From positions 39,367-103,366 of the forward strand of contig JACQZN010000122.1 of assembly GCA_016213845.1 (NCBI GenBank): a stretch of 64,000 nucleotides of DNA. Reading direction: 5' to 3'. Position numbers and translations under genes: made by a program. This document shows, in pieces, positions 45,558 to 54,536 of the stretch. This DNA comes from Candidatus Wallbacteria bacterium. Lineage in GTDB: Bacteria; Muiribacteriota; UBA6191; JACPRK01. The stretch's first letter is position 1. Each line of letters starts with the position of its first letter. Under the pieces are notes generated by a model. That model worked only from the letters and a program-made list of their open reading frames with translations, had not been told where the DNA came from and searched no databases.

Positions 45558-47624
45558 GTGAAGCAGCACGTCCAGGCATTCTTCGGCAGCTACGCCGAAA
45601 TTCTCTTCCTCCAGGGCACGGCGGCAGGGGCGGCCATCTTCGCGGTACTCCTCTTGGCGCCGAAGACCGCGGGCTGCGGCGTGCTGTCCGTGCTCTCCGC
45701 GTACGCGTTTGCGCAGTTCATCGGCCTGGGACCGGAGTTCCTCAGGACCGGCTACTACACGTACAACCCGCTGCTCGTGGGGCTCTCCATCGGTCACCTT
45801 TTCGAACCGACGCCGCTTGTCGGTTTTCTGGTCGTGTCGGCCGGCGTGCTCACCCTGGTCTTGACGGTGTCGCTGGCCAACCTCTTTTCGACCTACCTGC
45901 GGTTGCCGATCCTCAGCCTGCCCTTCGTCGTCGCCAGCTCCATCGCGTATCTGGCCTCGCTGCGATACTCCGGCCTGCTCTTCGGCACGCACGGGGGCAA
46001 CGCCTGGGCGCCCGACGTCGCGGTCCCGGCCTGGATGGCGGGGTTCTTCAAGTCCTTCGGCGCCATTCTCTTCGCACCGACCGTGCCGGTCGGTCTTGCG
46101 CTGGCCCTGCTGGTCGGCTGGCGCTCGCGCATTCTGCTGATGCTGGCGCTGGCGGGCTACGGGACGGGCGCCACGCTCCGCGGGCTCATGCTCGGCTCCG
46201 CCGCCCAGGCCTACGCCGATCCGACCAGCTTCAACTTCATCCTGATCGCGATGGCGGTCGGCGGCGTCTTCCTGATCCCCTCCCCCAGGAGCTTCGCCGT
46301 GGCCCTGGGAGCCGTCGCCGTCTCGACCCTCTTCCTCGACGCGACCACCGTCTTCTGGTCCTACTACGGTATTCCCGTCTTCACGCTGCCGTTCAACGCC
46401 ATCTCACTGGCAACGATCTACGTGCTCGGCCTCAGCGCCAGCCCGCTCGTCGCCCGATACATCAAGGAGACCCCCGAGGAGACTCTCGATCACCACCTCT
46501 CGACGTTGCTCAGGTTCTCCGGGTCCCTGCGGACCCTCACGCTCCCGTTCGCCGGAAAGTGGACGGTCTGGCAAGGTTTCGCCGGCCGCTGGACCCACAA
46601 GGGCTCCTGGTCCCACGCCTACGACTTCGTCGTCACCGACGACACGGGAGCCACGTTCCGCAACGAGGGACTCGAGCTCGAGGATTACTTCGCCTACCGC
46701 AAGCCCGTCCTCTCCCCGGTTCGAGGGAGGGTCGTCCGGGTGATCGACGACCTGCCCGACAACCCGCTCGGCACGGTCGACCGCGCGCAGAGCTGGGGCA
46801 ACGCGGTCGTCATTCGCGACGAGCGCGGGTTCGCCGTGGAGCTCTCCCACCTGGCGCCGAAGTCGGTCATCGTGCGCGTCGGCGACTGGGTGGAGCGAGG
46901 GGCGCTGCTCGGACTTTGCGGCAATTCGGGCCACTCCCCGCAGCCCCACATCCACGTGCAGGTGCAGGCGACCGACGATGTCGGGGCCGCGACGCTGCCG
47001 TTTTCATTCGTCTTCTACCGCCAGCAGTCGACCTACCACGCCGACGACCTGCCGGCCGAAGGCGCCGCCGTGGAGCCGCTCTTGCCCGACAGGACGCTGG
47101 ATGCCGTGACCGGGCTGGCGATCGACTCCCGGCACCGCTTCGAGGTGACCAAGCACGGCGCGCCGCAGGGCACGGTGGACCTGGAGGTGCGGATGGCAAT
47201 CGACGGCACCTCCTACTTCGAATCGGACCGCGGCAGGCTCTACTTTTCGCGCTCGGAGGGCACGTTCTACTTCCTGGGCATGGACGGCTCCGACGAGCGG
47301 CTGGCGCTGATGTTTCTGGCGCTGCCGAGGATGCCGCTGGCCTACGCGGAGGGGCTGGGCTGGAGCGACCACGTGCCGCTGGCAGTCGCGGCGACGGGCT
47401 GGCCGGTGGCGGCGGCCCGATTCCTGAGCGCCTTCCACGCGCCTGCTGCCCGGGTGGAGGTCGAGCTCGCCTTCGCGGGGCGAAACGTCGTCGCATCGCG
47501 CGCGCGCTCCAAGCTCCTGGGGCTGGATCGCGAGGCGAGGGTGGAGCTGGACCGGCGGTGCGGGTTCGCGCGGGTCGAAGGCAACGGCCTCGTGATGAGG
47601 AGGATCTCCAATGAGACTCACTGA
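45558..47624 (+). CDS. Urea-transporter-family membrane domain fused to M23 peptidase-like domain
   Basis: 'GYYTYNPLLVGLSIG', 'GIPVFTLPFNAISLATIYVLGL' then 'KGSWSHAYDFVV...ELSHLAPKSVIVRVGDWVERGALLGLCGNSGHSPQPHIHVQVQ'. Confidence 0.82.
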   Translation: MKQHVQAFFGSYAEILFLQGTAAGAAIFAVLLLAPKTAGCGVLSVLSAYAFAQFIGLGPEFLRTGYYTYNPLLVGLSIGHLFEPTPLVGFLVVSAGVLTLVLTVSLANLFSTYLRLPILSLPFVVASSIAYLASLRYSGLLFGTHGGNAWAPDVAVPAWMAGFFKSFGAILFAPTVPVGLALALLVGWRSRILLMLALAGYGTGATLRGLMLGSAAQAYADPTSFNFILIAMAVGGVFLIPSPRSFAVALGAVAVSTLFLDATTVFWSYYGIPVFTLPFNAISLATIYVLGLSASPLVARYIKETPEETLDHHLSTLLRFSGSLRTLTLPFAGKWTVWQGFAGRWTHKGSWSHAYDFVVTDDTGATFRNEGLELEDYFAYRKPVLSPVRGRVVRVIDDLPDNPLGTVDRAQSWGNAVVIRDERGFAVELSHLAPKSVIVRVGDWVERGALLGLCGNSGHSPQPHIHVQVQATDDVGAATLPFSFVFYRQQSTYHADDLPAEGAAVEPLLPDRTLDAVTGLAIDSRHRFEVTKHGAPQGTVDLEVRMAIDGTSYFESDRGRLYFSRSEGTFYFLGMDGSDERLALMFLALPRMPLAYAEGLGWSDHVPLAVAATGWPVAAARFLSAFHAPAARVEVELAFAGRNVVASRARSKLLGLDREARVELDRRCGFARVEGNGLVMRRISNETH

Positions 47625-52874: not shown

Positions 52875-54005
<1,131 letters not shown>

Positions 54006-54076
54006 CAACACCGGCTGCTCGGCAGCCGGCCGATCGACTTGCGACCGGCCCCGCGGTGGGGGTAGGATCGGGTAGC

Positions 54077-54170
54077 TGGAGGCGGTGGGATTCGAACCCA
54101 CGAAAGACCACGCGAGGTAGCCTTTGCCCGGGTGACAACCGGGTGCATTAGACCGCTCTGCCACGCCTCC
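54077..54170 (-). tRNA. Class II (serine-type body) tRNA with GUC anticodon, copy 1
   Basis: GGAGGCG TG GCAGAGCGGTCTAATGC A CCCGG TTGTCAC CCGGG C-AAAG-GCT-ACC-TCGCGT-GGT-CTTT-C GTGGG TTCGAAT CCCAC CGCCTCC A. Confidence 0.88.
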
Positions 54171-54174
54171 GGTG

Positions 54175-54208
54175 TCCCGGAGGGTTCCTTGGGCCCTCCG
54201 GGGTTTCT
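54175..54208 (+). terminator. Terminator-like hairpin next to tRNA copy 1
   Basis: cccggaggg-ttccttggg-ccctccggg + gtttcttctt. Confidence 0.6.
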
Positions 54209-54276
54209 TCTTGCTGAAGAGACTCCGTCCGGATGCGCTTGCGACCGGCCAGGCGGTGGGGGTAGGATCGGGTAGC

Positions 54277-54370
54277 TGGAGGCGGTGGGATTCGAACCCA
54301 CGAAAGACCACTCTGGGTAGCCTTTGCCCGGGTGACAACCGGGTGCATTAGACCTCTCTGCCACGCCTCC
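54277..54370 (-). tRNA. Class II (serine-type body) tRNA with GUC anticodon, copy 2
   Basis: Same cloverleaf; differs in D-loop (AGAGG) and V-arm tip (ACC CAGAGT GGT). Confidence 0.88.
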
Positions 54371-54374
54371 GGCA

Positions 54375-54408
54375 TCCCGGAGGGTTCCTTTGGCCCCTCC
54401 GGGGTTTC
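54375..54408 (+). terminator. Terminator-like hairpin next to tRNA copy 2
   Basis: cccggaggg...ccctccggg + gtttctttc. Confidence 0.6.
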
Positions 54409-54536
54409 TTTCGTCCGTCGATCCTGCGCCTGGGTTGGGCTCGCCGCGCCTCGGATGAGGGCGGCTTACCGGACGGCTGCGAATCTAGCCGACGAGTTGC
54501 TGAAACGGAGCTGAAATCGGCTGAAATCTCCGGGCG

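Follow-up and report, generated by a model that had tools for sequence, protein, structure and literature searches.

Could a tRNA that combines a serine-type body with an aspartate anticodon be a working gene, and if so, which amino acid would it carry and to which codons? The question is raised by two tRNA genes that lie side by side in the window, the 64,000-nucleotide stretch of a Candidatus Wallbacteria genome analyzed here. A sequence-only reading had described them as two class II tRNAs with a GUC (Asp) anticodon, which, if serylated and used on ribosomes, would put serine at aspartate codons. We find that the two genes are members of a tRNA family that is real, conserved and unusual, and that may be of the dual-identity kind. 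Few such families exist in bacteria; this one, from an uncultured lineage, would be their serine counterpart and has an ordinary 7/5 cloverleaf.

A tRNA family with one body and three anticodons

ARAGORN called both genes as 94-nt tRNAs with the anticodon gtc, at exactly the coordinates of the sequence-only reading (Table 1), and their scores against Rfam RF00005 were 58.6 and 58.3 bits (threshold 29). In the minimum-free-energy fold, copy 1 shows a 7-bp acceptor stem, a 5-bp anticodon stem with the loop UUGUCAC (hence GUC, in both copies), a V-arm whose 9 bp close a 5-nt loop, and a 5-bp T stem. These parts of the cloverleaf proposed earlier were thus recovered by folding; the D arm is absent from the single-sequence fold, and its 3-bp stem is backed by comparison across the family only. 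The two genes form a 169-nt direct tandem repeat with 200-nt spacing. Neither encodes CCA, as had been noted, although the contrast drawn with the tRNA-Val of the window is weaker than it seemed because 7 of the 47 ordinary tRNAs compared from the same genome also lack it.

Table 1. Features of the tandem tRNA locus (window coordinates).
Feature	Position	Strand
GC-rich inverted repeat CCGGCTGC..GCAGCCGG downstream of copy 1	54005..54040	.
Tandem duplication unit 1: hairpin, tRNA and 3' flank	54038..54206	.
Class II tRNA copy 1, serine-type body, GUC, promoter-distal, A73, CCA not encoded	54077..54170	-
GC-rich leader hairpin CCCGGAGGG..CCCTCCGGG, 5 nt upstream of copy 1	54176..54202	-
Tandem duplication unit 2, 92% identical to unit 1	54238..54406	.
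Class II tRNA copy 2, serine-type body, GUC, promoter-proximal, A73, CCA not encoded	54277..54370	-
GC-rich leader hairpin, 5 nt upstream of copy 2	54376..54403	-
Promoter-like element TTTCAG-N4-TTTCAG-N5-TTTCAG-N12-TAGATT, 5' end 156 nt upstream of copy 2	54482..54526	-

The inverted repeat downstream of copy 1 was not flagged by the terminator scan; it is possibly a bidirectional transcription end between the tRNAs and a convergent DUF362 gene. Read on the plus strand, the leader hairpins end in T-rich tracts (54174-54204 and 54392-54406) and resemble intrinsic terminators facing that same gene. Elsewhere in the window, an ORF on the plus strand (45558-47624) fuses a urea transporter domain to an M23 peptidase domain.

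The genome that contains the window (G000; 6.23 Mb, 84% complete, 135 contigs) holds a third member of the family, on contig C52, in which this body carries the anticodon GUG. Two congeneric genomes, both named "Candidatus Wallbacteria bacterium" at NCBI and derived from different groundwater assemblies, hold others: a GUC member and a GUG copy truncated at the edge of its contig in G001, and a GUC member, a GAU member and a contig-end fragment whose anticodon is lost in G002. Across three independent MAGs, one serine-type body is common to GUC (Asp), GUG (His) and GAU (Ile) anticodons. The search of related genomes for the same body plus anticodon, which the sequence-only reading had proposed, thus turned up GUC members in both relatives. 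The picture of an isolated pair was incomplete, as the GUG and GAU members, a promoter element, a leader hairpin and the base A73 were found in addition. In G002, the GAU tRNA is flanked by sbcCD and a 6-phosphogluconate dehydrogenase gene, the tRNA and its box being divergent to the sbcCD pair (C14:14000-23239), and the contig-end fragment on C82 adjoins what by eye is a likely AbrB/VapC-type toxin-antitoxin pair.

How far does the family extend? A covariance model built from six members gave 105-117 bits for full-length members and 79-91 bits for the truncated one, compared with at most 72 bits for ordinary tRNAs in 40 genomes of the phylum. The best-scoring loci inspected outside the genus were ordinary tRNA-Ser genes, plus one tRNA-Tyr. 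Judged by this gap and these loci, the family is confined to its own genus among the genomes compared. A V-arm pattern searched in 85,000 species genomes found no further family member outside the genus; its matches there were one chance match without a tRNA and an ordinary tRNA-Ser(CGA) in MAG AUK107, which is also the nearest tRNA among those compared (69-77% identical). An origin from phages or plasmids was considered and rejected: viral contigs held no match to the V-arm pattern, and the phage and plasmid BLAST matches inspected were ordinary tRNA-Ser(GCU/UGA) genes. One tRNA-Ser(GCU), from Stenotrophomonas phage cm3, has a 5' half very similar to that of the GUC tRNAs and the same CCCGG/CCGGG anticodon stem.

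The sequences carry the marks of selection. Every one of the 29 helix pairs is intact across the six family sequences (100% of cells), and five show compensatory double changes (acceptor stem, two; anticodon stem, two; V-arm, one); slid control alignments gave at most one double-changed pair. At the GUC locus, the tRNA (copy 1) is 99% identical between G000 and G001 and the leader is 73% identical. The GUG locus offers no such contrast because it is 96-99% identical throughout. Sequencing error and decay are ruled out, since body and anticodon recur together in independent MAGs, with compensatory changes.

Body type and amino acid identity

Under isotype HMMs, the family reached 39-44 bits with the Ser model, 4-15 with the Tyr model and no more than 5 with the Leu model; the test is rough, as the Leu model was built from 5 sequences and the Tyr model from 2. 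This agrees with the expectation of a Ser isotype with an Asp anticodon. Like ordinary bacterial tRNA-Ser, the family has the long V-arm of that type together with G1-C72 and G2-C71, a Ser-like D-loop layout and G15-C48. It departs from ordinary tRNA-Ser in its 9-bp V-arm stem, its promoter element, its anticodons (GUC, GUG and GAU in place of NGA or GCU) and, in most members, its discriminator base, which is A73 in the GUC and GAU members; only the GUG member has the G73 present in 69 of 69 tRNA-Ser compared. Nor are the GUC members canonical tRNA-Asp (class I, G73), with which they share the anticodon while carrying a V-arm and A73.

Serine identity lies mainly in the V-arm and not in the anticodon, and the G73 of E. 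coli tRNA-Ser matters in vivo and shuts out LeuRS and TyrRS (PMC9976931). Serine is therefore, as judged from the sequence features, the likeliest but not the sole candidate amino acid; A73 weakens the simple inference of charging by SerRS.

The own-genome inventory, in which ARAGORN was run on all tRNA loci and the genome was searched by pattern and family, includes ordinary class I tRNA-Asp(GUC) and tRNA-His(GUG), so the normal tRNA-Asp whose presence had been in question does exist. Four housekeeping tRNA-Ser genes (CGA, GCU, GGA and UGA) are also present. A tandem of divergent tRNAs (Gln-CUG, Asn-GUU and Ser-GGA, at C36:43297-43552), unlike the housekeeping copies, resembles a mobile or phage-type tRNA array. 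SerRS is represented by one clear gene, unlinked to the family tRNAs, and by a second, sub-threshold match that is not convincing. No dedicated SerRS paralogue was found in this genome by a search that depended on the N-terminal domain and that a paralogue without this domain would escape. The neighboring genes inspected (window, GUG, GAU and G002 GUC loci) included no synthetase, and no SelB-type factor or other tRNA-using enzyme was recognized among them; of the three genomes, only G002 has a full SelB.

The anticodon loop looks fit for decoding in most members. G34 is present in every member and U33 in all GUC and GUG members, and the loop TTGTCAC is close to the CTGTCAC of the genome's own tRNA-Asp. 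The GAU member, on the other hand, has C33 in place of U33, which should weaken decoding.

A promoter-like element shared with other genes

A GC-rich hairpin lies 2-6 nt before the tRNA at every family locus with available upstream sequence. Farther upstream, all six of these loci (the tandem pair counted as one) carry an element with the consensus TTTCAG-N4-TTTCAG-N5-TTTCAG-N12-TAnnnT, which starts about 95-156 nt before the tRNAs. With up to three mismatches, it matches 11, 8 and 14 times in the three genus genomes and never in a fourth genome, from the same order; when reversed, the pattern matched nowhere in the four. No ordinary tRNA of the own genome lies behind the element, according to a comparison of coordinates. 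The copy in the window is presumed to be the promoter of both tRNA genes. The TTTCAG repeats are 10-11 bp apart and directly upstream of a -10-like hexamer, and they look like a candidate response-regulator or activator site.

Which other genes are preceded by the element? In the own genome, it stands before a ComEA-like helix-hairpin-helix gene with recJ behind it, before an ssb pair, before recQ, before a pseudopilin-like pair (recognized by its N-terminal pattern; no family match), and before an Eco57I/type IIG-like methylase (restriction-methylation) gene. It also precedes a coiled-coil repeat gene, a gene for a secreted protein, a 61-aa ORF and a nucleotidyltransferase-like gene whose match falls below the Pfam cut-off, and a Y1 transposase gene is preceded by a close variant. 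The element was not found before comEC (present in all three genomes) or dprA (present in G000 and G002). Because these two genes are present without it, the set appears DNA-uptake/recombination-flavored and is not proven competence. In the coiled-coil protein (own contig C19; G002 contigs C404 and C453), an EDRH-type repeat varies in number and sequence, and the C19 gene is followed by a second gene without a family match.

This discrete regulatory signature would tie expression of the family to DNA uptake and repair genes, and the apparent link between tRNA and regulon may be the most novel part of the system. That the element is shared with such genes suggests that the "wrong" amino acid may be inserted deliberately and conditionally.

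Known systems and the possible function of the family

Three known groups of tRNAs invite comparison. The tRNA-ProX genes (tRNA-ProA/N/T) of Streptomyces and Kitasatospora carry several foreign anticodons on a Pro body (PMC11415595, PMC10365949); they mistranslate when expressed in E. coli, and when they are expressed in their hosts is not known (PMC11415595). The Wallbacteria family and tRNA-ProX are both bacterial families in which one isoacceptor body bears several foreign sense anticodons, with departures from U33. However, tRNA-ProX combines a class I Pro body with A34, Ala/Asn/Thr anticodons and a partner, ProRSx, encoded nearby, whereas the Wallbacteria family, in another lineage, combines a class II Ser body with G34, a partner synthetase not found at the examined loci, and a conserved promoter element that hints at when the genes are on. 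The allo-tRNAs of Acidobacteria, Clostridia and Proteobacteria likewise combine a serine-type class II body with a non-Ser anticodon, GUC being among the commonest, and two of them put Ser at Leu codons in E. coli (PMC7609411). Their 12-bp branch (8/4 or 9/3) contrasts with the 7-bp acceptor and 5-bp T stem of all members of our family, which also has its own promoter set; this 7/5 branch rules out membership. The family is thus a serine counterpart of tRNA-ProX and similar in kind to allo-tRNAs, and it is a member of neither. The nematode nev-tRNAs, V-arm tRNAs with Gly or Ile anticodons that are charged according to their body, also exist alongside normal tRNAs but are eukaryotic and have Leu identity; they can be mature and chargeable, yet mistranslation was not detected in vivo (PMC4300185). 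A tRNA-Sec-like system (8/5 or 9/4, usually UCA, with SelB) was rejected in view of the 7/5 branch, the sense anticodons and a SelB confined to G002.

How might the tRNAs act? A dedicated, regulated promoter, shared with a small set of DNA uptake and recombination genes, would drive a precursor made of leader, hairpin and tRNA, whose two ends would be processed and to which CCA would be added post-transcriptionally. SerRS would recognize the long V-arm and G1-C72/G2-C71, ignore the anticodon and load serine, probably less efficiently on A73 members than on normal G73 tRNA-Ser. EF-Tu would then bring Ser to Asp (GAC/GAU), His (CAC/CAU) or Ile (AUC/AUU) codons, where competition by the ordinary tRNAs would keep missense translation low-level and condition-dependent. 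We tentatively favor this account, a functional dual-identity family that is promoter-regulated, serylated and used for low-level conditional missense at Asp, His and Ile codons, at close to an even chance. Its further extension, in which Ser replaces a fraction of Asp, His and Ile when the TTTCAG regulon is on and so diversifies the proteome during DNA uptake and recombination, is conceivable but doubtful. The missense reading is weakened by A73, by C33 in the GAU member, by the nev-tRNA precedent and by the lack of a linked synthetase or SelB-type factor; a steady Asp-to-Ser substitution would be costly, which also counts against it. If the tRNAs do decode, mistranslation would belong to a defined physiological state and not be an accident; if they do not, a conserved tRNA class serves something else.

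The latter case, in which functional tRNAs co-expressed with the DNA uptake and repair genes act as off-ribosome aminoacyl donors or regulatory RNAs, is rather unlikely. It would account for anticodons that vary on a strictly conserved body and V-arm, for C33, for the conserved leader hairpin and for an element common to non-translational genes. But the anticodon loop is a clean 7-nt loop on a co-varying stem, with the G34, U33 and tRNA-Asp-like sequence described above, and a pure donor should not select a decoding-competent loop; a tRNA-using enzyme was also not recognized among the flanking genes examined.

Could the tRNAs instead be charged with something other than serine? TyrRS or LeuRS would then cause Tyr or Leu misreading, and AspRS, HisRS or IleRS would make them odd-shaped extra Asp, His or Ile tRNAs. 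A73 in the GUC and GAU members points this way, as G73 is the LeuRS/TyrRS anti-determinant in E. coli tRNA-Ser (PMC9976931), and the case for TyrRS combines A73 with G34-U35 and a class II body; C38 and GUC, moreover, match the anticodon loop of the own tRNA-Asp. Against it, the discriminators make AspRS and HisRS improbable charging enzymes: G73 in the own tRNA-Asp and C73 in the own tRNA-His, compared with A73 and G73 in the family. In addition, the base preceding the GUG member is T, not G. The family keeps G15-C48, whereas E. coli LeuRS prefers A15-U48 (PMC9976931), and the HMM scores favor Ser. On balance, we consider non-serine charging unlikely.

Some anticodon nucleases target the G34-U35 class of tRNAs, which includes GUC and GUG. 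Decoys or spares against such toxins or against phage, co-produced with the DNA-processing genes, would fit these two anticodons and the type IIG-like restriction-methylation gene behind the same element; GAU, however, falls outside that class, and the serine-type body would be left unexplained, so we regard this role as very improbable. Finally, tandem duplication, the missing CCA and restriction to one genus are what decaying or hitch-hiking functionless tRNA-Ser copies (pseudogenes or mobile repeats) might show, but that idea is largely refuted by the covariation and scarcely credible given the complete pairing, a GUC-locus tRNA far more conserved than its adjacent leader, and an element retained wherever the upstream sequence is available.
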